Below are positions 13,947 to 28,737 of a stretch of 38,388 bases of DNA, in pieces. The notes under the pieces are model-generated. The model was not told where the DNA came from and ran no database searches. It saw nothing but the letters and a program-made list of their open reading frames with translations. The DNA is taken from the NCBI GenBank assembly GCA_900696515.1, contig CAADGK010000121.1, positions 1 through 38,388 of the forward strand, given 5' to 3'. This DNA is from an uncultured Nitrosospira sp. (GTDB lineage: Bacteria > Nitrospirota > Nitrospiria > Nitrospirales > Nitrospiraceae). Each line of letters opens with the position of its first letter. The stretch's first letter is position 1. A program made the position numbers and the translations under genes.

Positions 13947-13963
13947 GTGACCTCATCTGTCAC
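13947..13963. promoter_or_regulatory. GTGAC-N7-GTCAC operator-like site 2
   Basis: GTGAC CTCATCT GTCAC, 104 bases after site 1 and sharing its first three spacer bases. Its left arm overlaps a weak -35 (TGAC core), and TAAGAT at 13972-13977 could be the -10 of the vWA operon, so occupancy would affect transcription. The promoter call is tentative. Confidence 0.55.
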
Positions 13964-14016
13964 GGTTCGCGCGTAAGATGGGCCTCTCCACTACCAATCA
14001 GAAGGAGGTCGCCATC

Positions 14017-14730
14017 ATGGAAACATCAGTACCGCAACAGCCAACTTCCGCAGCTCAACCGCTGTATGTCACCCTCATTTTCGACGAAAGCGGCTCCATG
14101 CAATCGTGCAAAGGCGCGGCTCTCGCCGGGTTCAATCACTACCTTGCCACGTTACAGCGAGAGCCGGCCGAGACGCGTTTCACGCTGACCCTGTTCAACT
14201 CGCAGAAGACCGAAGTCCGGCACCGGGGCGTGCCCGTGTCGGCGGTGCAGGGACTGGGCGTCGAAACATACCGGCCAGACGGCGGTACGCCCCTCTACGA
14301 CGCTATCGGGCGTACCTTGTCTCTGGCCAAACAGGAAGCGCCGTCTGAGGCCAAGAAACTCTGCGTCATTCTGACCGACGGGAAGGAGAATGCGTCGCAG
14401 GAATACAGCAGACGGCAGGTGTTCGATCTCATCAAGCGGCATGAGCAACAGGGCTGGGCCTGTCTCTACCTCGGCGCCGACCACGATGTGTGGGCCGCCG
14501 GTGGCGACCTCGGGATTGCGGGAGACAGCCGCATTGCCTTCTGCCGAAGCCCGGTCGGTCACACATTCGATCAATTAAGCCAGGCAGCTGCGAATTTCCG
14601 CCGCAGTGACGAACAGTCGGCAGCCGATGCCTTCATCCCCAAAGAGACGCCATCTTCGCCGGAATCGTTGTCCAGCGATCGGGAGCCGCCGTCGTGGCGC
14701 ACAGGATTGGACGAAAGGCGCATGTCATGA
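14017..14730 (+). CDS. von Willebrand factor type A domain protein
   Basis: A 237-residue protein. ATG 14017 follows AAGGAGG at eight bases. A complete metal-ion-dependent adhesion site is visible: Asp23-x-Ser25-x-Ser27 (DESGSM), Thr91 (GGTPLYDA) and Asp121 (LTDGKEN). The Rossmann-like domain fills about residues 15-190. The tail is Ser/Pro-rich and charged. No signal peptide or membrane segment is present, so it is probably cytoplasmic, binding a protein partner through a divalent metal. Its stop overlaps the next ATG (ATGA), linking it to a small exported protein. Two operator-like palindromes precede it. The partner is unknown. Confidence 0.88.
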   Translation: METSVPQQPTSAAQPLYVTLIFDESGSMQSCKGAALAGFNHYLATLQREPAETRFTLTLFNSQKTEVRHRGVPVSAVQGLGVETYRPDGGTPLYDAIGRTLSLAKQEAPSEAKKLCVILTDGKENASQEYSRRQVFDLIKRHEQQGWACLYLGADHDVWAAGGDLGIAGDSRIAFCRSPVGHTFDQLSQAAANFRRSDEQSAADAFIPKETPSSPESLSSDREPPSWRTGLDERRMS

Positions 14731-15161
14731 AGACGCTCGGCATTCTGATCATGGTCTTGCTCTGGACGCCGGCGTCACTCCAGGCCGAAGATCTCGGCAA
14801 TCTCAGCGCGAATCCCTATGATGCCGACTCCATCGCCAATCCGTTTGGCAAAGGGAGCGCCTTCGCGCCGAACGGGGTCAACAATTCCTTCAGCCCCTAT
14901 GGCAGTCCGTTCAGCAACCAGTCAGCCACCAATCCCTTCGCCACGGAGGCGCCCAGACTCTACGATCAGCAGGGCAACTATCGCGGCAAGCTAAGCGCCA
15001 ATCCGTTCGAGCCCGATTCGGCGAGCAACCAGTTTGGCCGGTACGGATCGCCCTTTTCGCAGGAGTCGCTCTCCAACCCCTATGGCGCGGGGAGTCCCTA
15101 TCGACAGGACTCGCCGAAGAATCCATATGGGAAGGGCTGGCGGATTGAGGGGCGGCAATGA
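14727..15161 (+). CDS. Exported protein with Asn-Pro-Phe/Tyr-Gly repeats
   Basis: 144 residues, starting at ATG 14727, which overlaps the vWA stop. Residues 1-20 form a signal peptide (MKTLGILIMVLLWTPASLQA, then EDLG). The mature part is built of degenerate repeats around NPFGKGS, SPYGSPFS, SNPYGAGSPY and KNPYGKGW, rich in Asn, Ser, Pro, Gly and aromatics. It is probably extended and periplasmic or surface-associated. Similar NPYG-repeat proteins are common hypotheticals. No catalytic residues are apparent. Translation coupling suggests expression with the vWA protein. Confidence 0.75.
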   Translation: MKTLGILIMVLLWTPASLQAEDLGNLSANPYDADSIANPFGKGSAFAPNGVNNSFSPYGSPFSNQSATNPFATEAPRLYDQQGNYRGKLSANPFEPDSASNQFGRYGSPFSQESLSNPYGAGSPYRQDSPKNPYGKGWRIEGRQ

Positions 15162-15624: not shown

Positions 15625-18255
15625 ATGAAAATCACGTTCGGGCTGCGGTTGGATGGGGAACACGGATGGCGACCAGCCAATCGGTTGGGACAGCCTGTCC
15701 TTGGCCCCCTCGGATTGCTGAACCTGCTTGAGACCAGGCTCGGTTTGCTACGTGCGGAATGTACACAGGCACAACGACTGACGCAGTACCGCGAGTGTCT
15801 CAAGCGCTGCGACAGGCCGGATCGTTTCTACCATGCCTCGTTCCAGGTCGATCCGATCGGAGCTTCTGCTTCCCTCTTGTCGTGGCGGGACAATTGGTAT
15901 CTGCATGGCTGGAATGGCGAGGTGCCATCTGGGGCGAGCGTTCGGCTCGCCGACCTGGCCGCCGTGGAGCCAATCGCCCGTCAGCTCTTGTTTCCATCGA
16001 TCGGGGAGCGATTAGCTCAAGTGGCCGAGTCCCTCTCGCGCCAGCAGGCCAAGATCGAGCAGCTTGAGTTGGTCGACCCGATAGAGGCCTTTCCGAAGTG
16101 CTGGCGGGCCGTGCTCGCGAAGCTGCCGGTTCAATCGGTTCGAACCTATGGGCCGGCGGCAGATGAGACGACCGTACTGGGACGGCTCCAGATTGCGCTC
16201 AAGTCCGCGCATGAAGGCAAGAAGCTGTATGGGAAGATCGCCTGGAAGGACGATGGCAGCCTCCGCGTCGTCCGCGCGGAGACGGGGCTGGTTGCGGCGC
16301 GCTGGGTGGCCCGGACAGTCGCATCGCGACAGGAAGAGGTCGCGATTGTGGCCGAGCAGGGCCGCTCGTTACTCGACGTCACACTCGATGCTGTCGATAT
16401 TGCCCGGCAGGGATTCCAGGATTCGAGTCCATTGGTCCCCGCGCTTCAAGTTTTGCCGCTTGCGCTCGCCACGGTGTGGGAGCCGATCGATGTCTATGCA
16501 CTCCTTCAGTTTCTCTCCCACCCGATAGGGCCGGTTCCCAGCTATGCCCGGCGGCGACTGGCTGGAGTGATTGCGGAATGTCCTGGAATCGGTGGCCCAC
16601 GGTGGCGCGAAGTCATTGAGGAGATCGAACAGCTTCATCCGGAGCGTGCCGGCGATTTTCGCAAGGCCCTGGCGTTCTGGATCGAGCACCCCCGGTACAG
16701 CCCCGCACAAGGTGCTCCGCTCACGGTGCTGCTCGAGCGAACGCGCGGGGTTCGCGACTATTTCGGCGGCAGGCTTGCCGATCAGGACCCCATTCAAAGG
16801 GCGGCCAACGCGACGGGCTACGGACAGGCCATCACGGTAGCCGCGGCGCTCGAGGCATTGGCTGCCCAGGGGGAATCCTCACTTACACCCATGGAGCTTG
16901 AGGCGCTGGTTGCTCAGTGTACGGGGCGCGGCGCGCCGAACTTCGCGATGCAGGCTCAGGTTGGGTGTGTGTTTTCGGCATCAGACCCTGGTGCATTGGT
17001 CGAGCCTTTCGACCGGGTGATCTGGTGGCAGATGGGAGCGCCGCCGTTGCCCGCTCAGTATCCCTGGAGCCGAAGCGAGCTGGAGGCGCTCGCACGAGTA
17101 GGTGCGGACATCCCGCACCCTGAGGAGACTCTTGCGCAACGAGGCCAGGATTGGCTTCGCCCTATCTTGAACGCGCGGAAGCAACTCGCGCTCGTCCTCC
17201 CTCCACCCGGTGAGGAGATGCACACGCTCTGGCAGGAAATCCAGTGGTTTGTTGAGGGCGTGCGACCGGAGCCGCTAGAAGATCTGGTGACGGGTCGTGC
17301 CGGCGAAGATCTTCCGGAGGTTGCCCATGTGCCTCTACCGCGACTCCGGCGGTGGTGGAAGCTGCCCTCTGACATCAAGGTCACCCTTCGCCCACGCGAA
17401 TCCTATTCCAGTCTCAATACGTTTCTGAATGCGCCCTATCAGTGGGCTCTGAAGTATCCCGCGCGGCTGAAGCCGTCCGACCTGCTGGCAGTCACCGATG
17501 GGAACCGGCTCTACGGTAATCTCGCCCATCGGCTGATCGATCGGTTCTTTCGTACCGAGGGTGCGCAAGCCCTTCGCGGCGATGCATTAAAATCCTGGTT
17601 CTCCGAGCAGTTTGCGATAGTAGTAGTACAGGAGGGCGCCGTCCTTTTAATGCCGGGCCGGCGTGGGGATTACGAGCGCTTGCATTCGGCGCTGGGGCAT
17701 GCGCTCGAAGAGCTCCAACGCCAATTCATGGCGGCCGGCATTGATGTGGTGGAGCCGGAGCGCGAGCTTGCCGGTCAGTTCCCAGGGGGCGACCTCGAAG
17801 GGACGGCCGATCTTGTCGTGCGCAACAAATCGGGCCGGCAGGCGATTGTCGACATGAAATGGGCCGGCGCCACTGTCCACCAGGACCGGCTCGCAAAAAA
17901 ACGACATTTGCAGCTGGCTCTGTATGCGGAGTTGCTTCGTCAGGAAACGGGAGCGTGGCCGCAGGTGTCCTATTTCATGCTCGAGGCGTCTCGCCTCCTC
18001 GCGCCGGATAGGGGATTCTTCCCGGAAGCGCAGCCGGTGCAATCAGGCATTGGGGACACCACGCCGCAACTGTGGAACCAGTTCGTCGCAGCCTGGAACT
18101 GGCGCCGGTCCCAAATTGACGAGGGAATGATCGAGGTGGTCATCGACGGCATCGAACCGACCCCGGAATCAGTGGGGCCGCCCAATGCGCTCACACCGGA
18201 AGAGTTGCCTGAGTCCTACAACGAGTATCGCTGGCTTGCCGGCTGGGAGGATTGA
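15625..18255 (+). CDS. AddB-like protein with C-terminal PD-(D/E)XK nuclease
   Basis: 876 residues, GAGGT six bases before the ATG. The long N-terminal part is helical and has no Walker A motif, as expected for an inactivated helicase-like AddB-type subunit. The C-terminal nuclease is recognisable from about residue 590 (SYSSLNTFLNAPYQWAL). Asp is near 728 (EGTADLVV), Asp and Lys near 742-744 (IVDMKWA), and a QLALYAEL helix near 762. The next gene, an AddA-like helicase-nuclease, starts two bases after the stop. Together they should form a two-nuclease end-resection or DNA-degrading complex. I do not assign the symbol addB because sequence similarity to the standard protein cannot be checked here. 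Confidence 0.82.
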   Translation: MKITFGLRLDGEHGWRPANRLGQPVLGPLGLLNLLETRLGLLRAECTQAQRLTQYRECLKRCDRPDRFYHASFQVDPIGASASLLSWRDNWYLHGWNGEVPSGASVRLADLAAVEPIARQLLFPSIGERLAQVAESLSRQQAKIEQLELVDPIEAFPKCWRAVLAKLPVQSVRTYGPAADETTVLGRLQIALKSAHEGKKLYGKIAWKDDGSLRVVRAETGLVAARWVARTVASRQEEVAIVAEQGRSLLDVTLDAVDIARQGFQDSSPLVPALQVLPLALATVWEPIDVYALLQFLSHPIGPVPSYARRRLAGVIAECPGIGGPRWREVIEEIEQLHPERAGDFRKALAFWIEHPRYSPAQGAPLTVLLERTRGVRDYFGGRLADQDPIQRAANATGYGQAITVAAALEALAAQGESSLTPMELEALVAQCTGRGAPNFAMQAQVGCVFSASDPGALVEPFDRVIWWQMGAPPLPAQYPWSRSELEALARVGADIPHPEETLAQRGQDWLRPILNARKQLALVLPPPGEEMHTLWQEIQWFVEGVRPEPLEDLVTGRAGEDLPEVAHVPLPRLRRWWKLPSDIKVTLRPRESYSSLNTFLNAPYQWALKYPARLKPSDLLAVTDGNRLYGNLAHRLIDRFFRTEGAQALRGDALKSWFSEQFAIVVVQEGAVLLMPGRRGDYERLHSALGHALEELQRQFMAAGIDVVEPERELAGQFPGGDLEGTADLVVRNKSGRQAIVDMKWAGATVHQDRLAKKRHLQLALYAELLRQETGAWPQVSYFMLEASRLLAPDRGFFPEAQPVQSGIGDTTPQLWNQFVAAWNWRRSQIDEGMIEVVIDGIEPTPESVGPPNALTPEELPESYNEYRWLAGWED

Positions 18256-18257
18256 CG

Positions 18258-21200
18258 ATGGCTGGCGCGATCAGATTCGTCAGTGCGGGTGCGGGTAGCG
18301 GGAAGACCTATCGTCTGACGCACATTCTTCACGAGAAGCTCATCTCGAAGCAGGCCACGCCCGGCGGAGTGATTGCGACGACCTTCACTCGCAAGGCGGC
18401 CACAGAGCTTCGCGAGCGGGTCCGGACCGCGCTCCTGGAGAAGGGAGAGTTCGCGCTGGCTACGTCGATGGGGCAGGCACGCATCGGCACGGTCAATAGC
18501 GTGTGCGGGGGATTACTAGAGCGCTTTGCATTCGAGGCGGGACTGGCCCCGGAACAACGGGTGCTGGAGGAAGCACAGGCCAGCGCGCTGGTGCGGGAGG
18601 CGATCGATGCGGTCTCTGATAATGCCATGATACAGGACCTCGTCGAGCTCGCACGGAGATTGGGCATCGACAGTTGGCAAGATGCGCTGAAGTCGCTCAT
18701 CGACCAGGCCCGAGCAAACGATATCGCACCCGAGCGGTGCGCGACGTTCGGCGGGCGCAACGCCAGTGACCTGCTCGCCCACTTTCCGGCGCCGTCCACC
18801 GAAGATCTTGACGGAGCGCTCCTACGCGCGATCGAGACCATCGTTCCCGAGCTCGAACAGCGCGCGACTGGCAAAAAGAACACGGCCGCGTACATCGCGC
18901 TCGCCCGCGAAACCTCGCGGGTCGTCCGAAGCGGCAGCGCGATCTGGGCCGACTGGGTCAGGCTCTCCAAGGGCGCGCCGGAGGCTGGGCTCAAGACAAT
19001 CGCGCAGCCTGTGACAGACCTTGCGAGCCGTTATGTTGCGCATCCACGGCTGCGGCAAGACATTGAGCAGTATCTTGTCGCGATCTTCACCCTCGCGGCC
19101 AAGGCGCTCGATGCCTACGCCCAGAGAAAGCGCGAGCTAGGTGTGATCGACTTCGTCGACCAGGAGCATTTGTTTCTCGGCTTGTTGGAAAAACCGGCCG
19201 TCACCGAGGTGCTGTCGAAGGAATTGGATCTGCTGTTGGTGGACGAATTCCAGGACACCAGTCCCATTCAGCTCGAACTCTTTATGCGCCTGTCGCGCAT
19301 TGCCCGCGAATCAGTCTGGGTCGGCGACGTTAAGCAGGCCATCTATGGATTTCGTGGCAGCGATGCGGAATTGATGAAGGCCGTGCTCGGAACACTTCCG
19401 AGTTTGGGCGGCTCCAAAGAGGTCCTTGATCAGTCACGCCGGTCTCGGCCACCTCTGGTGCGTCTGGTCAATAGCGCCTTCGGCAATGCGTTTGCGCCTG
19501 GGCTCTCGCGCGGAGAGGTGGAACTCGCCCCCGTTCGCGAGGAGCTGGTCTCGGAACCGGCCTTTGCCAACTGGGTGCTCAACGGTAAGAACATACCGCA
19601 AAGAGCGGCGGCACTCGCTGAAGGCATCAAGGCGCTGATCGCATCAGGATATCGCATCGTCGATCCCGCAACGGGAAGTCCTCGGCCCGCGCACTACGGC
19701 GACATCGCGATACTCTCTAAGACCAACGCGGGTGTACAGGCGGTGGCGGAAGCCCTTCGTTTCGGCTCTGTGCCCTGGGCCACGCAACAGTCCGGACTGC
19801 TCGCTACTCCGGAGGCGTTGCTGGCGCTCGCGTGTTTGCGACGACTCAACGACCCACGGGACACCCTGGCGAGTGCCGAGATTGTGTCGCTCGCGGACTG
19901 CGAGGAACCGGAGTCCTGGCTGGCCGATCGGTTGCGCTATCTCGAACGCGGTGGTGACAGTGGCTTCTGGCGAGACGAAGCCAAGGACGGTCATCCCATC
20001 CTTTCGCGCATTGCGGTGTTGCGCGCCCAGGCGCCGCTCCTGTCGCCGGCTGCGGCAATGGAACTGGTCATGGTGCAGTGCAATCTTGCTGGCCGGGTCC
20101 TGCGTTGGCGGCGGGACGAACTTGTCGCACGCGTGCGACTGGCCAATCTAGACGCCCTGTTGGGGCTTGCACGATCCTACGAGGAGGCCTGTCTCGCGCG
20201 ACGAGAACCAGGGACGGTCTCCGGGCTTATCCTGTGGCTTGGGGAACAGGCACAAGGGGAACTCGACATGCTCGCCGAGCCGCCGGTTCATGCGGTCAAG
20301 GTCATGACGCATCACGCCGCCAAGGGGTTGGAATGGCCGATCGTCATTCTCCTCGATCTGGAGAAGGATATTCAGGATCGGCTCTGGTCGGTGGGTGCCC
20401 GATCCGACACGAGCCTCGACGTTGCCGCTCCACTCAAGGACCGCTGGATCCGCTATTGGCCATGGCCGTTCGGCAGCCAGCAGAAAGTCGACATTGCCGA
20501 TGTGATTGCTCAGGCGCCGGAAGGACTTCGTGTGCGCACTGAAGCGATCGATGAGGCCAAGCGCCTCCTCTATGTGAGCATGACCCGCGCGCGTGACCTT
20601 CTCGTGTTCGCATTATCTGGGAAGAAGGGCATGGGGGAATGGCTGGGTTCCCTGAATGCTCCCTGGCTGGTGCCGGACGTGGCGAGTCTATCGATTGTTC
20701 TGCCGGATGGGTCGGATGTTCCGTTCGCCTTCCAGAGCATAGATCCGCCTGGGGCTACGCCGGTTAGGGCCGAGCCGGATGTGACCCTCCGGTGGTTTCC
20801 GGTCCCTGACTCGCGCACGGAACGCTTGCCGGCAACGCTAATCGCGTCGTCTTCTATGGCCCGACCGTGCAGGGTCATAGGTGCTGCGTCGCTCGGAGAG
20901 CGAATCGCGCTGAAAACAGGAGCCGACATGACGGCAGTCGGCAATGCCATTCATGCTTGTATTGCACTGGCGTTCATGGATTCGGGCATACCGTTGGATG
21001 AGGCCCGGATAACGCGTATGCTCGACAGTTTTGGCCTAAAGGGCGCAATTGATCCATCCGGGCTGGTGCGACACATCGCCGCCCTCGACCAGTGGATTTC
21101 CTTGCGCTGGCCGGATTGTCGCCGCCAAACGGAGATCCCTATTGAATCGATTCTCCCTAGCGGGCAAGTCATGCACGGGCGAATCGATCTGTTGTTGGAA

Positions 21201-21404
21201 GTGGACGGAGGCTGGGTGCTTCTTGACCACAAGGCGAATCCGGCTTCCAGAGACAGATGGGATCAAGTGGCCAACGAGCACGGCGGGCAGTTGTCCATAT
21301 ATGCTGACGCGCTAGTTCGCGCAACCGGCCGGCCGGTCACGGAGAGCTGGATCGTGCTGCCGATCGCGGCTGGAGCGATCCAGGTCTCGATGGATGCGGC
21401 ATGA
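18258..21404 (+). CDS. UvrD/AddA-like helicase-nuclease
   Basis: 1048 residues. ATG 18258 is preferred over TTG 18252 because GGGAGG lies seven bases upstream. Superfamily 1A helicase motifs are intact: Walker A (SAGAGSGKT, 9-17), motif Ia (TFTRKAATEL), motif II (VDEFQDTS, Asp329-Glu330), motif III (VWVGDVKQAIYGFRGSD), motif V (MTHHAAKGLEWP) and motif VI (LLYVSMTRARD, near 770). A C-terminal PD-(D/E)XK nuclease follows: GRIDLLLE (Asp near 977), LLDHK (Asp near 990, Lys near 992) and GGQLSIYADAL. ATP-driven unwinding plus DNA cleavage with the AddB-like partner is expected, in double-strand break repair or foreign DNA degradation. Confidence 0.9.
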   Translation: MAGAIRFVSAGAGSGKTYRLTHILHEKLISKQATPGGVIATTFTRKAATELRERVRTALLEKGEFALATSMGQARIGTVNSVCGGLLERFAFEAGLAPEQRVLEEAQASALVREAIDAVSDNAMIQDLVELARRLGIDSWQDALKSLIDQARANDIAPERCATFGGRNASDLLAHFPAPSTEDLDGALLRAIETIVPELEQRATGKKNTAAYIALARETSRVVRSGSAIWADWVRLSKGAPEAGLKTIAQPVTDLASRYVAHPRLRQDIEQYLVAIFTLAAKALDAYAQRKRELGVIDFVDQEHLFLGLLEKPAVTEVLSKELDLLLVDEFQDTSPIQLELFMRLSRIARESVWVGDVKQAIYGFRGSDAELMKAVLGTLPSLGGSKEVLDQSRRSRPPLVRLVNSAFGNAFAPGLSRGEVELAPVREELVSEPAFANWVLNGKNIPQRAAALAEGIKALIASGYRIVDPATGSPRPAHYGDIAILSKTNAGVQAVAEALRFGSVPWATQQSGLLATPEALLALACLRRLNDPRDTLASAEIVSLADCEEPESWLADRLRYLERGGDSGFWRDEAKDGHPILSRIAVLRAQAPLLSPAAAMELVMVQCNLAGRVLRWRRDELVARVRLANLDALLGLARSYEEACLARREPGTVSGLILWLGEQAQGELDMLAEPPVHAVKVMTHHAAKGLEWPIVILLDLEKDIQDRLWSVGARSDTSLDVAAPLKDRWIRYWPWPFGSQQKVDIADVIAQAPEGLRVRTEAIDEAKRLLYVSMTRARDLLVFALSGKKGMGEWLGSLNAPWLVPDVASLSIVLPDGSDVPFAFQSIDPPGATPVRAEPDVTLRWFPVPDSRTERLPATLIASSSMARPCRVIGAASLGERIALKTGADMTAVGNAIHACIALAFMDSGIPLDEARITRMLDSFGLKGAIDPSGLVRHIAALDQWISLRWPDCRRQTEIPIESILPSGQVMHGRIDLLLEVDGGWVLLDHKANPASRDRWDQVANEHGGQLSIYADALVRATGRPVTESWIVLPIAAGAIQVSMDAA

Positions 21405-21734
21405 CCTTCTGCAAAGTGATGTATAAGGGTTCGAGACGAAGACTTTTGGTTTGTAGAAACAATGGATGATGGGTCCAGTCATTTGATCGAGACAGAAGAA
21501 GCCGCCATCGTACTCCAGCTTCAACCTTCCGCTGTCTTTAGAAGAGACATCAGCACGTCTCCTTCCTAAGCCAGTGGTGTAATATTCTTGGGCAGATCAC
21601 ATCCTGAGCAGGAATTGTGTCTTTACTACGCCTCCAATACGGCGGCCTAGCTTTCCGGTCTTAATCAGCGGGTAGAGAAGCATTTGGGCAGGCATGCTTG
21701 ACGAGATATGGTCTGGTCAGAAAAAGGAGGGCTT
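21405..21734. other. Intergenic region at a composition change
   Basis: 330 bases without a supported gene. The DNA turns visibly AT-richer here, marking the boundary between the helicase-nuclease pair and the next two-gene unit. I do not see a convincing terminator or promoter. Confidence 0.4.
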
Positions 21735-22568
21735 ATGCTGAACGCGATTTACTACCACAAGAGACGCGGATCGGTTTACGCACAAGAGCCGAAGGTGGAG
21801 CTCTACCAGCCTTACGAAGATCTTCTAACTGCATCTATTTGGGAGCGCATCGGATATTTGCCTGATTCGGTGATATGGCACATCGTGAAGAAAGCCCTCG
21901 CAGCTAGCTGCTCAGCTGAGATGCCTCTCGAGGCTGGAGCTCTGGAGGCCTTTAGGTTCTGGCCTAGGTGGCAATTCAAAGGAGGGGAGGTAGAACCGGA
22001 TGTATTCCTTCAGTTTGAGACGTGCGATGTGATAGTAGAAGCCAAACGCTTGGACGACGCAAATCAACAAAATCCTGAGCAGCTCGCTCAGGAACTGACA
22101 GCCTACTTCACTACTTATCCAAACCGAGGCTCCATTTGTGTGGGGCTTTTAGCTATCGGTGGGCTCCCGGATTACGAGGGGAGCATTGTCACACGTTTAC
22201 GAGACCAAGTGCTGTCGAGAGTCTCTGCGACAAATCGGCAAAGAGTAAAGTTTGGGGCCATATCTTGGTCAAGTCTGTATCGTGTATTAGAGCCAATTGT
22301 GGCAGGTTCCGCCGATACGTCAGCTGGAACAAGGTTGTTGCGGGATATGAAGCGGGCGCTGGTGCTGCACGATGTCGCGCTACGAGACAGGGTGTGGCTT
22401 GCTGATTTACCACAGGGGATCCAATCGCAAGGTTTGAATATCTCCTTGGAGAATTATGATGGGTTTGCCCCATGGCCAAGGTGCTCTCCGGAACTCTTGA
22501 TGAATAAAGCTTATGACTGGTCCATCGGGGATGCCTATGGGAGGATACAGCAATGGAGAATACAGTAA
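21735..22568 (+). CDS. PD-(D/E)XK superfamily nuclease, family unknown
   Basis: 277 residues. ATG 21735 has AAGGAGG five bases upstream, so a start at 21708 is rejected. The core motif is clear: Glu87-Pro-Asp89 (EVEPDVFLQF), then Glu102 and Lys104 (VIVEAKRLDD), followed by a Gln-rich helix (QQNPEQLAQELTAYF). This is the layout of a metal-dependent DNA endonuclease. The C-terminal 120 residues are not recognised. There is no restriction-methylase partner nearby. The gene overlaps the next by 16 bases, and the AT-richer composition suggests acquisition. A DNA-cleaving defence effector is plausible but unproved. Confidence 0.75.
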   Translation: MLNAIYYHKRRGSVYAQEPKVELYQPYEDLLTASIWERIGYLPDSVIWHIVKKALAASCSAEMPLEAGALEAFRFWPRWQFKGGEVEPDVFLQFETCDVIVEAKRLDDANQQNPEQLAQELTAYFTTYPNRGSICVGLLAIGGLPDYEGSIVTRLRDQVLSRVSATNRQRVKFGAISWSSLYRVLEPIVAGSADTSAGTRLLRDMKRALVLHDVALRDRVWLADLPQGIQSQGLNISLENYDGFAPWPRCSPELLMNKAYDWSIGDAYGRIQQWRIQ

Positions 22569-23206
22569 ACCTTGAGACTGCATTATGCGAAGTCAGAAAG
22601 GCGTATCGCCTGCTATGGTTGTTTCAGCGGAGGGTACTGGACATCTGTGAAACTATCAGAGATAGCTTTGGTGTTGTGTTCTATTACGTTGGTTATCACT
22701 TTGATAAACCCACCAACGGTAGTCCATTCAAGAAGTGGTCGTGGGATATGTTGCCAATGAGCAACATCAGTTTCCTTTTTGTAAGGCACAAAGGAGAGTA
22801 TCCCAACAAGGAGTGGGCTAACTATCCGATGCCCGGTGATTATCTTTTGTCCATACATGTGGTGCCAGACACTGCGTTGCTAGATTGCAAGTTTGAGGGT
22901 GAGCCAGATCCGATGCGGTTTTCACCCCCCAACGCTGCGGGTAGCAAGCTAGGTTTGTATCTTTACTATAATGACGCGAAGCGAATGGATGCGAATGGAC
23001 AACCTTCGCTCACAAACTGGTTTGACCGAATTTGGAGTCCTCTGCGAATGATAAGGCATGCTCACAGTGATAATCATCCTCTCGAAGGGGTAAGGACTTA
23101 CGGTTACGTTCTGAATCTATCTCAGCTGGATTCGGCCGAAGCAATTCGGAAGCACGTGAAGGAGTTTAGAGACGCCGTAAAGGTCCAGCTGAATGTCGAA
23201 CTATGA
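22553..23206 (+). CDS. Unknown partner of the PD-(D/E)XK nuclease
   Basis: 217 residues. The ATG lies inside the 3' end of the nuclease gene, with GGGAGGA eight bases upstream, so expression is coupled. The N-terminal 45 residues are helical (TALCEVRKAYRLLWLFQRRVLDICETI), followed by an aromatic-rich alpha/beta domain (VVFYYVGYHF, WSWDMLPMSNISFLFV, YLLSIHVVPD) and a C-terminal helix. No known catalytic or DNA-binding motif is visible. Possible roles are a sensor, specificity subunit or immunity protein for the nuclease; all are inference from the gene order. Confidence 0.7.
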   Translation: MENTVNLETALCEVRKAYRLLWLFQRRVLDICETIRDSFGVVFYYVGYHFDKPTNGSPFKKWSWDMLPMSNISFLFVRHKGEYPNKEWANYPMPGDYLLSIHVVPDTALLDCKFEGEPDPMRFSPPNAAGSKLGLYLYYNDAKRMDANGQPSLTNWFDRIWSPLRMIRHAHSDNHPLEGVRTYGYVLNLSQLDSAEAIRKHVKEFRDAVKVQLNVEL

Positions 23207-24791: not shown

Positions 24792-25808
24792 ATGGGCCAG
24801 AAAGGACGCATGACGAAACGAGGTCGACGGCCGAAAGCGTATAGCCAGGCAGAACGGCTGGCGCGGATGATGCGCTCTCTGGCGAGTCATAGCATGACGA
24901 TCAATGAGCTGGCTCACGAGTTCGAGATCACTCGGCGACAAGTGTACCGGGATCTCGAGCGTCTCGAAGAGGAGGGGCATCCGTTGACCCTGTCCGATGT
25001 GTCCGGGGAACGATCTTGGCAGTTGCCGCTCGGCTACAAAGGGCTTCAACCCATTACGCTCTCGCCCTATGAACTCATGTCGCTCCAGCTTGCGCGGTCC
25101 GGCTTGGCCTATCTAGAAGGGACTCCGTTTCTCGATGATCTGGATCAGACGCTAGCCAAGATCCGCACGTCGCTTCCCGAGAAAACCAGCAATCATTGGG
25201 ATCGATTGCTGCAGGTGTTTACGCCGTTACCGAGGCCGCTGAAGACCTACGGTGGGCAGGCTTCGCTGCTACGTGATCTGCGTAAAGCCTTATTACTCCA
25301 GCTGAGAGTTGAGCTCGAATATCGAAAGCCTGGTGAAGACGAACTGATTAGTTATCGGATTGATCCTTACACCTTGGCGCTGTATAAGCAGGGTTTGTAT
25401 GTGACGGCTTATTCGCACACGTCCGGAGGCGACCGTCTGTTTTTGGTGGATCGAATGAAGACGATCCAGGTCACCGATGAACGGTTTGATTTGCCGGCCA
25501 ACTTCGCAGCCGCTGAACGGTTCACCGAGCTCTTCGGGTTGGTGGAGGAAGCGCCGCAGGATATCGTATTGCATGCCAGCGCGGACGTGGCCCATTTTTT
25601 TCGTGAATCGCAGTGGCACTCCAGTCAGCAATTCACGCCCCAGGACGATGGATCCTTGCTCGTGACCTTCCGGGCTGGCGGATTGGAGGAAATCTCCCAG
25701 TGGGTATTGTCCTGGGGGAAAGAGATGAAAGTCCTCGGTCCGCCTGAGTTGGTTGCGGTGATCACCGAGCAGCTTGCCCAGACTCTACACCGCTACACCC
25801 CCCGATGA
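24792..25808 (+). CDS. WYL-domain transcriptional regulator
   Basis: 338 residues. A DeoR-type winged HTH covers residues about 18-75 (RMMRSLASHSMTINELAHEF, RRQVYRDLERLEEEGHPLT). The WYL domain is at about 170-240 (YRIDPYTLALYKQGLYVTAY, DRLFLVDRMKTIQV), with a WCX-type C-terminal dimerisation segment (ISQWVLSWGKEMKVLGPPELV). The core triad reads L-Y-V rather than W-Y-L. WYL regulators bind ligands, often nucleic acids, and control DNA-damage or phage-defence loci. Starts at 24792 and 24810 are both possible; neither has an ideal ribosome site. The regulated genes are unknown, but the helicase-nuclease and nuclease units just upstream are candidates. Confidence 0.88.
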   Translation: MGQKGRMTKRGRRPKAYSQAERLARMMRSLASHSMTINELAHEFEITRRQVYRDLERLEEEGHPLTLSDVSGERSWQLPLGYKGLQPITLSPYELMSLQLARSGLAYLEGTPFLDDLDQTLAKIRTSLPEKTSNHWDRLLQVFTPLPRPLKTYGGQASLLRDLRKALLLQLRVELEYRKPGEDELISYRIDPYTLALYKQGLYVTAYSHTSGGDRLFLVDRMKTIQVTDERFDLPANFAAAERFTELFGLVEEAPQDIVLHASADVAHFFRESQWHSSQQFTPQDDGSLLVTFRAGGLEEISQWVLSWGKEMKVLGPPELVAVITEQLAQTLHRYTPR

Positions 25809-26941
25809 TTGCATTGCTCTCACACCCGTGACCGCCTATCCCTATATCCTCCATCGTCGCATAGCCATGGCATAGTTTGTCATATCAGTGGGGCATGCTC
25901 GCGCACACGCGGCTGAGGGAGAACAGTCAGCACGCGCATTCTCGTGACGAATGATGATCCAGGCGCCGATGACCTTCGGGGCCTGCAAGCCACGGCTGGT
26001 GAGGCGTAACACTAACACCACGTGTGTCGAAGAGGGGAGGAGGTATGTCGATGACTGGTATCGCGAGCCCAATCACTTGGTGGTAAGTAGGCATCAGGGC
26101 GTTACGATACGCTTCGAGGCGCCATGGGCGAACGGACTCCATGGCACACCGCCGCAGGTAGACATTCGTCTTAATGAAGATTTTGTTCTGCGATTGAGTC
26201 CAAATGTCTTGAGTTCCTCAAGCCAAAGGAAGCGGTGTTGGCACCAGCGTATGCCACTATTGTCGACCTCCGTGCCCGATCACCCTGATTCCAGCAGATT
26301 GCGTTTCTTCGATCAACCCGTACGTGCTCTCGGTCTCTAGATGTCGCGCAACTGATCAAGCAGTATCTGGGACTCTCCTACGTCGATCCTGTCAGTCCCT
26401 CTGTCTGCTCTATGTGTATTGAGAGCCGGTGAATTGGCAAGCCTCCAAGGCATTCCCTCAACACTGTGAGGAGATTTGTCGGTTTCGCGAAGCGGTTTCG
26501 GAGAGTGAAGTCTCGTTCGAAACCTTGAGTTACTCGACCTATGCACGGAGTGGGCAGGTTGGCAAGATCCTCGCTGGCTGAAGCACCACCCGTCAGTGTT
26601 GAGTTGGGGAAGGACGAGATGCCGAAACATTGATCATCACGAAGCATCCCGGATGCTCCGTTTGAAATATGAACAGGTAGATCGTCGAGAGGAACACCTC
26701 GAACTGACTTAGGGGAGCCGAGTAGGATGTATGACGATTGTGAACCGCCCACCGCGGCAGTAGCGGTGGGCTGCAAGTCGACTCACCGGTTTAACGAAGC
26801 AAATCTGTCACCTGGCGCCACGCATCTACCACTGCCATACCGTTTAAACCTCTTCAACGACATCCGTTGGGCTCACAGTTCAGCGCTCTTAGGCCACCCG
26901 TTTCGCGACAATATTAGGGCTGAACATCCGCCCGTTCTGAT
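25809..26941. other. About 1.1 kb of apparently decayed sequence
   Basis: No intact gene. Short plus-strand stretches read as protein (VAQLIKQYLGLSYVDPV near 26345; a GTG frame with EEICRFREAVSESEVSFE near 26430-26577) but end quickly. This suggests eroded coding DNA. A 9-bp inverted repeat GCCCACCGC/GCGGTGGGC lies at 26747-26771. Confidence 0.4.
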
Positions 26942-26958
26942 GTGACATTTCCTGTCAC
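26942..26958. promoter_or_regulatory. GTGAC-N7-GTCAC operator-like site 3
   Basis: GTGAC ATTTCCT GTCAC, extended to TGTGAC/GTCACA. It is 84 bases before the Tat-primase start codon. Arms and spacing match the two sites before the vWA operon, suggesting shared control. No clean -10 can be placed after it. Confidence 0.55.
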
Positions 26959-27042
26959 AGGTGTCTGTTAGAGTACCTCTCGAGCTAGGGCACTTAAAAA
27001 CGCAACGGAACAGTGTCCCCTTCAGTGCGTGGAGACGAAATT

Positions 27043-28347
27043 ATGCTCAACCGACGAAACTTCCTGAAAACACTGCCCGCGCTCGGAATGGGCCTACTCG
27101 TGCCATCGCGCCGCCCAAATGCAGCGGCTGCGAGCCCAGAGATGCCCATAAGACCCAACTCAATCGGCCCGGTTATTCCGGTCGAGCAGAGAATGCAAGA
27201 GTTAGCGACTGATGATGATGGCGTGCTTGCACGCGAACGGTGGGCGGATCTGTTGGATGACTTGGACTGTGTTGAGATTGCGATGCGGTACTTTGGTCTC
27301 ACAGAGTTCTCCCGATGCGTCGGAGATGTCAATTTTTGGCGATCCTATTGTCCCTTCTGCGGGTTTAACACTCTCTGCACGCTCGAGATTGGACCTGAGT
27401 CATTCCGGTGTGACTGGTGCGCGGCGGCAGGCTCCACGATCGAACTCTATGCCAGAATTGAGGGGCTCTCCGATGAGGATGCCCGCTGTCGTTTGGAGGT
27501 ATTACTCCATGACGGAACATTGGTCGGTCGTCGTCCAGAATATGAACATGCGTGGAGCCTCATGGGGGAGGCGCATCAATTTTATAATCAATTGCTTGGA
27601 GAGAGCGCAGAGGGTGCTGGGGTGCGCTCAATCCTGACGGAACAGGGGATCAGTCCTTCTACCATCCAACAGTTTATGCTGGGATATGCACCAGCAGCGC
27701 CCACTGATCTGCTCAGTCGGCATTTGCTGGAAGGCGGGTATGATCCCGAATGCCTGCAATATGTCAGTCTGAAGGCGGAGCATAGATCCAACGCAATCGT
27801 TGATCGATATGCCGGAGGCAATCTCCTGATACCTATTCGCGATGCATTCGGCCACAGCTGGGGGTTTTTTCAGAAGGCACTCGATGGGGGAAAGACAAAC
27901 TTTGATGCCGGATGGATTCAAAGCACCGTCCCAGTATCAGAACGTCGGCGACGACGACTAATCTTTCCCCAGCCGAGTTGGCCGCAGGACTTCCGTCTTT
28001 ATGAGAACGTGCTCTTGGCGAAAACGCCGTGGGAAGTGGTCGCATTAGGGGAGGCCGGCATCGAGAATGTTGCCTATATATTAGAGAGCACGTCTGTCCA
28101 CGATCCCATTCCGAGAAGGACTTTACTGGCCTTGGCCAACAACATCGTCTGTCCAATTGACGGCGAGGGCAATGGTCCGACCGCAGCGTACGATTTAATA
28201 AATGCTCTTGGAGGTGATTCTGTGAGGCTCCGGGTCGTGTCCGTACCATCCAAATGGAGCGTCATACAACTTCTGACAAGTGGGGGAGCCGCGACGGTGC
28301 AGGAGGCAATGGCTCGCGCAATTCCGCTTCATCAATGGCGTGGCTGA
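27043..28347 (+). CDS. Degenerate DnaG-like primase with a Tat-type signal
   Basis: 434 residues. ATG 27043 has GGAG eight bases upstream; 27013 lacks one. Residues 3-9 read NRRNFLK, a near-consensus twin-arginine motif. A hydrophobic run (TLPALGMGLLV) and an Ala-rich cleavage-like site (NAAAASP) follow. A zinc-ribbon of CHC2 type comes next (Cys103/Cys106 in YCPFCG, Cys123/Cys126 in CDWC). Then comes a stretch like the DnaG N-terminal catalytic fold (VRSILTEQGISPSTIQQFML, LLIPIRDAFGHSWGF). The TOPRIM part is degenerate: LLAKTPWEVVALGEAGI lacks the usual Glu-Gly, and the Asp-x-Asp region reads IDGEGNG. It probably does not synthesise primers; export by Tat is predicted only from sequence. Confidence 0.8.
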   Translation: MLNRRNFLKTLPALGMGLLVPSRRPNAAAASPEMPIRPNSIGPVIPVEQRMQELATDDDGVLARERWADLLDDLDCVEIAMRYFGLTEFSRCVGDVNFWRSYCPFCGFNTLCTLEIGPESFRCDWCAAAGSTIELYARIEGLSDEDARCRLEVLLHDGTLVGRRPEYEHAWSLMGEAHQFYNQLLGESAEGAGVRSILTEQGISPSTIQQFMLGYAPAAPTDLLSRHLLEGGYDPECLQYVSLKAEHRSNAIVDRYAGGNLLIPIRDAFGHSWGFFQKALDGGKTNFDAGWIQSTVPVSERRRRRLIFPQPSWPQDFRLYENVLLAKTPWEVVALGEAGIENVAYILESTSVHDPIPRRTLLALANNIVCPIDGEGNGPTAAYDLINALGGDSVRLRVVSVPSKWSVIQLLTSGGAATVQEAMARAIPLHQWRG

Positions 28348-28419: not shown

Positions 28420-28737
28420 CAAGCGTGGTCTTCTTTACGCAGAAGTCTGCCGCAATTTGGGCATCAGTGAGCAGACGTTCGACACCTGGACGCGGAAATA
28501 CGCGGGGCTCGGCCTGAGTGAACTCCGGGAGCTCCGACAACTCCTGGACGAACTGCTGAACTGGGAACTGTTTGATACACTCTGGGAGGTGAAGGTGCTC
28601 GTGGAGCGCCGGCGGCAGACCTACAACCGAATTCGGCCCCACAGTACGCTGGGGTATCGTCCGCCAGCACCGGAAGCGATCGCGTCGCGTTGTGCGTGAC
28701 TCACATTCACGCTGGTATAACTATAGAGGGCAGGTCA
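28420..28737 (+). mobile_element. IS3-family element remnant with internal deletion
   Basis: The frame ending at 28699 joins part of an IS3 OrfA (AEVCRNLGISEQTFDTW, KYAGLGLSELRELRQL) directly to the end of OrfB (ELFDTLWEVKVLVE, YNRIRPHSTLGYRPPAPEAI). The leucine zipper end of OrfA and nearly all of the OrfB integrase core, including the DDE residues, are missing. An IS end may lie near 28737 (GGCAGGTCA). The product cannot transpose. Confidence 0.8.

Follow-up and report, generated by a model that had tools for sequence, protein, structure and literature searches.

A conserved Nitrospirales family of DnaG-like proteins with a predicted Tat-type signal, found beside a WYL regulator and defence-type genes

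Introduction

Primases are regarded as cytoplasmic replication enzymes. In DnaG, the lysines of the PKYLN and F-x-K-G motifs are the usual ones.

WYL-domain regulators provide the closest described counterparts for the control of the locus presented here. DriD of Caulobacter, according to excerpts of a preprint (PMC12340889), is a homodimeric WYL activator triggered by single-stranded DNA (ssDNA), and its site, ATACGAC(X)7GTCGTAT, overlaps the -35 element at a constant distance from the -10 element (PMC12340889, in the same excerpts). SiwR of Mycobacterium, as summarized in part of PMC10693628, is a homodimeric WYL activator that uses a 19-bp imperfect palindrome before the -10 element of a neighbouring operon. 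BrxR and other defence-island WYL regulators are placed, in an extract of PMC9122601, beside variable defence cargo, as is the regulator here.

Our subject is a DnaG-like gene that lies downstream of a WYL gene in DNA of an uncultured member of the Nitrospiraceae. By the window we mean the whole 38,388-nt stretch that was analysed (contig CAADGK010000121.1). Regulator, promoter and defence context all go beyond what a sequence-only reading of this DNA had described.

Results

The DnaG-like gene and its family

The limits that the sequence-only reading gave for the gene (27043-28347) were right, and the ORF is intact (Table 1). A GGAG ends 8 nt 5' of the ATG at 27043, and MLNRRNFLKTLPALGMGLLVPSRRPNAAAASPE is the N-terminal sequence of the 434-aa product. 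That reading had called the protein a fragment, which is apt insofar as the C-terminal part of a 600-aa DnaG is missing; nothing else is, and both the zinc domain and the RNA-polymerase domain are complete.

Table 1. Features of the window, with the basis of each assignment
Feature	Coordinates	Strand	Basis or remark
Tat-type DnaG-like protein gene, subfamily A	27043..28347	+	intact ORF, 434 aa, ATG start
Predicted Tat signal, residues 1-31	27043..27135	+	N-R-R-N-F-L-K, 13-residue uncharged run, Ala-rich end; signal end set by eye
Zinc-binding domain, residues 68-157, Cys103/106/123/126	27244..27513	+	four Cys in 22/22; structural match 1d0q
DnaG RNA-polymerase/TOPRIM fold, residues 163-434, catalytic residues lost	27529..28344	+	3b39_B structural match; residue counts
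Predicted promoter: palindrome GTGACATTTCCTGTCAC (26942-26958), 10 nt, -10-like TAGAGT (26969-26974)	26942..26974	+
WYL-WCX transcriptional regulator gene	24792..25808	+	Pfam; 13/13 loci; closest solved relative 8tp8
PDC-M15A-like candidate defence gene	21708..22568	+	PADLOC 1.8e-37; no Pfam match
PDC-M15B-like candidate defence gene	22553..23206	+	PADLOC 1.2e-36; no Pfam match
UvrD-like helicase with PD-(D/E)XK domain	18252..21404	+	UvrD-helicase 2.7e-44; PADLOC GajB 2.5e-33; putative member of the same regulon
PD-(D/E)XK nuclease protein	15625..18255	+	PDDEXK_1 3.2e-18; DruK 9.6e-10; putative member of the same regulon
NPF-repeat protein, Sec-like N-terminus (by eye)	14727..15161	+	look-alikes behind the same promoter pattern elsewhere
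VWA-domain protein directly behind the second promoter	14017..14730	+	VWA 24.0 bits, cut-off 23.8; AGGAGG before ATG; no PADLOC match
Second perfect promoter-pattern copy, before the VWA gene	13947..13979	+	genome pattern search

A first homologue search, with 39 relatives, contained a single clear homologue other than DnaG, which shares 31% identity with the window protein over residues 1-402, signal included. Profile searches then covered 235 Nitrospirales genomes and 395 genomes sampled across the phylum, Nitrospirales included; at most 7 and at most 4 candidates per genome, respectively, were scored, so copy counts are lower bounds. Intact family members score E 1.5e-142 or better and match from profile position 1, while ordinary 600-aa DnaG proteins score 7.3e-41 or weaker, mostly from profile positions 39-110; partial or broken family copies score between 4e-89 and 5e-36. 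In two DnaG rows outside Nitrospirales (G262, G269) the match starts as early as positions 19 and 10, but it has to run through an in-frame stop to do so. The family is present in 19/235 Nitrospirales genomes, 15 with full-length genes and four (G157, G071, G059 and G140) with only broken or truncated copies, and no full-length member was found outside Nitrospirales among the 395 genomes sampled from the phylum. It is thus an accessory family in Nitrospirales. At least 21 full-length proteins are encoded in the 15 genomes, the other 20 being 24-45% identical to the window protein. Named members come from Nitrospira moscoviensis NSP M-1 (NZ_CP011801), where the gene is on the complete chromosome, and from a Nitrospirae MAG (JAQBUF010000050). 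Two subfamilies, A and B, can be told apart, and six genomes carry A and B copies a few kb from each other. A first scan of contigs from broader genomes found no relative; a second found at least two loci among the matches listed, both from Nitrospirota, with other phyla poorly covered. In the open-access literature, searched by titles, we found no paper title describing a Tat-signalled or exported primase-like family. The family is real, conserved and unusual.

Across the whole gene, dN/dS was 0.20-0.42 in 11/11 pairs, which were chosen among close relatives; for the signal region alone the numbers were too small to read, with dN > dS in one pair. These values bear on whether the gene is a decaying remnant without function, as the existence of broken or truncated copies (L064, L067, L170, L171, and extra copies in L054 and L057) might suggest. 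We consider this very improbable, given that dN remains below dS over the whole gene in every pair and that signal, zinc site and promoter are conserved. The truncated copies at L054 11046-11546 and L057 8903-9727 share a similar tail (KRYRE...NQLLQPTIRD), a resemblance that suggests a shared inserted or recombined repeat.

A Cys4 zinc ribbon and the loss of catalytic residues

The proposed DnaG-like core is borne out by both profile and structure. The window protein matches Pfam DNAG_N at 36.5 bits (6.1e-9; cut-off 26), and in a phmmer search against PDB the best 9 of 12 matches are DNA primases. An AlphaFold model built from a 21-row alignment has a mean pLDDT of 79 and a pTM of 0.76, with values below 50 at residues 1-4, 6-44, 51-56 and 90-95. 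The best 20 Foldseek matches of the model are all DnaG structures (9.9e-17). By VIA-align, residues 163-434 superpose on the E. coli DnaG catalytic domain 3b39_B (Z 22.9, rmsd 3.1, 258 residues) and residues 51-157 on the DnaG zinc domain 1d0q (Z 9.5, rmsd 2.6, 92 residues). Structure prediction, which had been recommended as a check, thus recovers the DnaG fold in the modelled zinc and RNA-polymerase domains alike.

Within this fold, the residues diverge. We aligned 22 family members with six Nitrospirales DnaGs; one member, L064, is truncated before the TOPRIM acids. The zinc ribbon had been read as CHC2-type and is instead Cys4: Cys occupies the four positions in 22/22 aligned members, replacing the His. 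The TOPRIM acids had been judged degenerate, correctly. Of the 22 members, 15 keep the Glu, eight the first Asp and one the second, and the full Glu/Asp/Asp triad is kept in 0/21 members having the region; the window copy has Lys/Asp/Glu. At the acid that comes next, in E-G-Y-x-D, 21 members have Asp or Glu. Each of the two DnaG Lys columns (PKYLN and F-x-K-G) holds Lys in 0/22, in a part of the alignment that is loose and has other basic residues nearby. Net charge differs as well. The zinc domain carries -10 to -1 (mean -4.9) in 21 members versus +1 to +3 (mean +2.5) in the six DnaGs, and the polymerase domain is somewhat more acidic in the members (mean -3.5 versus -0.8). So acidic a zinc domain does not favour template binding and makes a protein target as possible as a nucleic acid. 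TIGR01391 matches 21/21 members at E<=1 (best 2.5e-25), with the window protein, at 65.8 bits, below the curated cut-off of 283.6. Because no member with the region retains the DnaG Glu/Asp/Asp triad, the window protein is very probably not a primase, and primer synthesis itself would be absent.

A conserved Tat-type N-terminus

The homologue search that the sequence-only reading had called for found the signal in all 21 full-length members. Each begins M-x-x-R-R, leaving neither signal-less homologues nor a better downstream start among them, and the suggestion of a recent 5' fusion is refuted by the same count. R4, R5, G15 and the four zinc Cys are invariant in 21/21, and K9 and P21 are conserved at 90%. 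The arginines persist through synonymous change: R4 is encoded by four Arg codons (AGA 11, AGG 7, CGA 2, CGG 1) and R5 by five (CGC 6, CGA 4, CGG 4, AGG 4, CGT 3). Judged by these codons, conservation of the Arg pair exceeds chance.

The curated models respond below threshold. The window protein scores 14.8 bits with Pfam TAT_signal (cut-off 22.7) and 15.1 bits with TIGR01409 (cut-off 16.7), and each model matches 4/21 members at E<=1. We also applied an RR rule, which is our own regular expression in the style of TATFIND and is not TATFIND itself; 17/21 full-length members satisfy it and 4/21 fail. Fifteen of the 17 have an uncharged run of at least 12 residues, and the other two a run of only 10. 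An RR + run rule with a slightly different window is passed by 3/210 other ORFs of at least 150 aa from the same loci, all of them one orthologous RR protein. The window's own genome has two TatC genes above cut-off. Tat transports folded, cofactor-loaded proteins, and a Cys4 zinc protein is therefore a sensible client. The Tat-type signal proposed for the window protein, with its RR motif, hydrophobic run and Ala-rich end, is thus present and conserved, and we infer Tat-dependent export from it.

The same N-terminus could instead be an uncleaved membrane anchor. The product would then be an inner-membrane protein, its DnaG body possibly facing the cytoplasm, and would serve as a tethered regulator or nucleic-acid receptor. 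The low scores with the Tat models and the short uncharged runs of several members (10-12 residues) fit an anchor, and a cytoplasmic body would reach DNA more easily. An anchor has no need of two arginines that stay invariant at 24-45% identity, though, and in many copies the run ends, by eye, in an Ala-rich, cleavage-like stretch. On balance we regard the anchor as rather unlikely.

Another reading keeps the whole protein in the cytoplasm, as a nucleic-acid-binding protein or inactive primase subunit whose RR lies in a helix unrelated to export. DnaG ancestry speaks for it, as do neighbours such as nucleases and helicases, which work in the cytoplasm. It would have to explain, however, why the RR, the hydrophobic pair, the Lys/Gln and the uncharged run occur at the same place in every member whereas the linker that follows them diverges, and why the similar rule picks out so few other ORFs of these loci, all of a single orthologous group. 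A purely cytoplasmic protein is accordingly an improbable alternative, and Tat export of the folded protein is the reading carried forward below.

A WYL regulator and defence-type neighbours

A WYL gene lies upstream on the same strand in 13/13 loci with an intact A copy. Its product has the HTH-WYL-WCX architecture (WYL 56 bits, WCX 64 bits; Pfam). The gap between the two genes is 57-260 bp in 12 loci and 1,234 bp in the window, where the intervening 1.2 kb (25812-27040) is single copy in the genome and has no similarity to 28 other loci. WYL and family distances correlate (r 0.74, 0/2000 permutations). A WYL match at 1e-70 occurs in 33/235 Nitrospirales genomes; 19 score 2e-151 or better, and G071 has a broken copy. 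All 19 family genomes fall within the 20/235 genomes that have the same WYL type, by a cut-off set after the fact, the twentieth being G021. This co-occurrence is partly linkage, because the WYL profile was built from eight family neighbours. WYL gene and promoter also occur together without an A copy (L065, L066, L172 and L173), so the regulator is not specific to the DnaG-like family.

The best solved match of the WYL protein is 8tp8 (7.6e-30), tied by 9pfq (8.0e-30). We take 8tp8 to be DriD because PMC11804915, in the part drawn on here, deals with the structure of DriD bound to DNA and ssDNA and assigns 8TP8 to C. crescentus.

Downstream of the A copy, 8/13 loci encode a small protein with two invariant Cys (10/10), which we call c5; its model is all-helical (mean pLDDT 79), and in two loci without an A copy it follows the WYL gene. 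Just 3' of the DnaG-like gene in the window (28457-28699), we found no c5 gene. That interval holds a fragment which, by eye, resembles the end of an IS3-type transposase.

Defence-type genes recur in these neighbourhoods. Besides the window, PDC-M15A/B neighbours are found in L053, L057 and L059, there by clustering only. Others include Mrr (L054, L063), GmrSD/HEC-05 (L058, L172), PDDEXK_4/PDC-S26 (L068) and AAA+ proteins with IetA scores (L170, L172). Pfam cut-offs are passed by 5/19 neighbour proteins scanned besides WYL. Five neighbours have no PADLOC match (L055 9636, L058 10729, L060 10813, window 14017 and L172 9523), and the window DnaG-like protein itself matches 0 families among the PADLOC models.

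In genus g22, UvrA/NAT genes flank the block on one side and a c20/MBL pair on the other. In L164, which lacks the block, NAT and c20 are separated by 79 bp; elsewhere the site holds different genes, and by this comparison it is a hotspot. The position, flanked by core-like genes, is thus filled by the block in some genomes and vacant in L164, and this counts against a conjugation or mobile-element primase travelling with DNA. The sequence-only reading had offered a conjugation-related protein, in keeping with the DnaG-like primases found on plasmids and phages, but we found no support for one. A tblastn search returned 31 plasmid and 25 phage records, and the best 40 of these 56 matches are weak, at 20-26% identity (23 labelled primase, 17 without a label). 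A match in a Euzebya plasmid that begins at residue 9 is not a signal-bearing member; it belongs to a 596-aa dnaG, and the CDS of that gene begins only after the first 111 bases of the match. No relative was present among 159 pattern stretches from viral contigs. With the catalytic residues lost and the N. moscoviensis gene chromosomal, we consider a mobile primase extremely improbable.

A shared promoter-like element and a candidate regulon

Upstream of 23/24 family genes we found a common element consisting of GTGAC-N7-GTCAC, 10 nt and TAnnnT. Seven loci share GTGACATT(C/T)TCTGTCAC in the WYL-gene intergenic region, and five more distant loci have a like site. TAnnnT stands at offset 10 in 23/24 A and B copies, versus 0-3/24 at other offsets from 4 to 19; the 24 copies include truncated ones, and many come from close relatives and are not independent. 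The sole copy lacking TAnnnT at that offset is the truncated L170, and weak rows were kept among the 24 (L068 with three mismatches; L063, L065 B, L066 B and L170 with two each). The exact palindrome GTGACA-N5-TGTCAC occurs 14 times in 465 kb of loci versus 0.05 expected from 20 mononucleotide shuffles. No such palindrome precedes the 16 WYL genes examined upstream, where the best matches have 3-5 mismatches. PafBC was dropped as a model for the promoter: its motif is published as non-palindromic, unlike the site here, which shares its palindromic form with those of DriD and SiwR.

Family promoters served to derive the pattern, so the independent part is its sites at other genes. Searched across the 235 genomes, the pattern matches perfectly at 41 sites, spread over 27 genomes, versus 0 for the reversed pattern. 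A perfect site is present in 16/20 genomes of the WYL type versus 11/215 others (Fisher 2e-14); other WYL regulators may serve those 11. Genes behind the sites encode VWA proteins, NPF-repeat proteins with Sec-like starts, a small lipoprotein-like protein and c5-like proteins, and several of these products look exported by eye. VWA and NPF-repeat look-alikes lie behind the pattern in L185, L188, L197, L198, L203 and L204. In L064 and L173 a small lipoprotein-like ORF (MK..LVSLM...TGC) is directly behind the promoter, in L064 between the WYL gene and the truncated family gene.

The 4.6-Mb genome of the window holds two copies of the perfect longer pattern (26942-26974 and 13947-13979), one before the DnaG-like gene and the other before the VWA gene. 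At up to two mismatches it gives 7 pattern matches versus 7 reversed-control matches, and single-mismatch matches have no separate control. Two single-mismatch sites stand before defence-type genes. In L182 (3560-8525, contig C56) the site, itself behind a second WYL gene, is followed by a gene for an AAA+ ATPase that scores with IetA and, further on, by a HEC-05-like gene, by gene content a sister module without a DnaG-like gene. In L183 (270-8879, contig C114) the site precedes nuclease and helicase genes resembling window 15625-21404, then ZorA (3.2e-237).

Discussion

On the strength of these observations, we think it probable that the window protein is a DnaG-fold protein of Nitrospira defence islands that is non-catalytic, induced by the WYL regulator and exported by Tat. 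By homology to DriD, the neighbouring WYL activator would be switched on by ssDNA arising from DNA damage or phage attack. It would then bind GTGAC-N7-GTCAC, which occupies the -35 place 10 nt before TAnnnT, and activate the DnaG-like gene along with other defence-type genes. The product would fold in the cytoplasm, acquire the zinc of its Cys4 ribbon there and leave, still folded, by the Tat route that its conserved signal suggests. Lacking the metal-binding acids, the usual lysines and the C-terminal DnaG part, it would presumably make no primers. At the periplasmic face it would act by binding, most likely as a decoy or trap for an invader's nucleic acid or protein, which is the weakest step of the scheme.

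A bolder version, which we offer tentatively and hold to be clearly less probable, is an envelope-located immune factor: a primase fold without catalysis, produced in response to an ssDNA alarm through a DriD-like promoter, exported folded through Tat and acting on invading DNA or phage particles outside the cytoplasm. Other exported regulon members would leave with it, possibly the lipoprotein, the NPF-repeat proteins and the small two-Cys protein.

A branch of this kind, conserved, catalytically dead and to all appearance exported, would mean that the primase fold has been put to another use. For Nitrospira it would also predict a defence regulon that is induced by stress and whose promoter code can be read, so that further members can be found by sequence and the role of the exported proteins becomes testable.

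The comparison with known systems places the locus between several described arrangements. Like DnaG (TIGR01391; PDB 3b39, 2au3, 1d0q), the window protein has a zinc domain followed by an RNA-polymerase/TOPRIM domain; unlike DnaG, its family has a Tat-type signal, Cys4 in place of CHC2, an acidic zinc domain and no C-terminal part, and has lost the triad and the lysines. BrxR, in the extract cited above, is a repressor, whereas the promoter geometry here resembles an activator site. SiwR, as far as its source was excerpted, has an adjacent target and a palindrome before the -10 element, as here, but its target is a DinB-like operon, unlike the present one. With the DriD site, in the excerpts available, the element shares the GAC-N7-GTC core and spacing, and the half-sites differ beyond GAC/GTC. 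DriD sites are described there at bapE, recJ and dnaG, among others, whereas here the regulator adjoins its presumed target amid defence-type genes, and its presumed site, read from sequence only, is a palindromic GAC-N7-GTC at a fixed distance from a -10 element.
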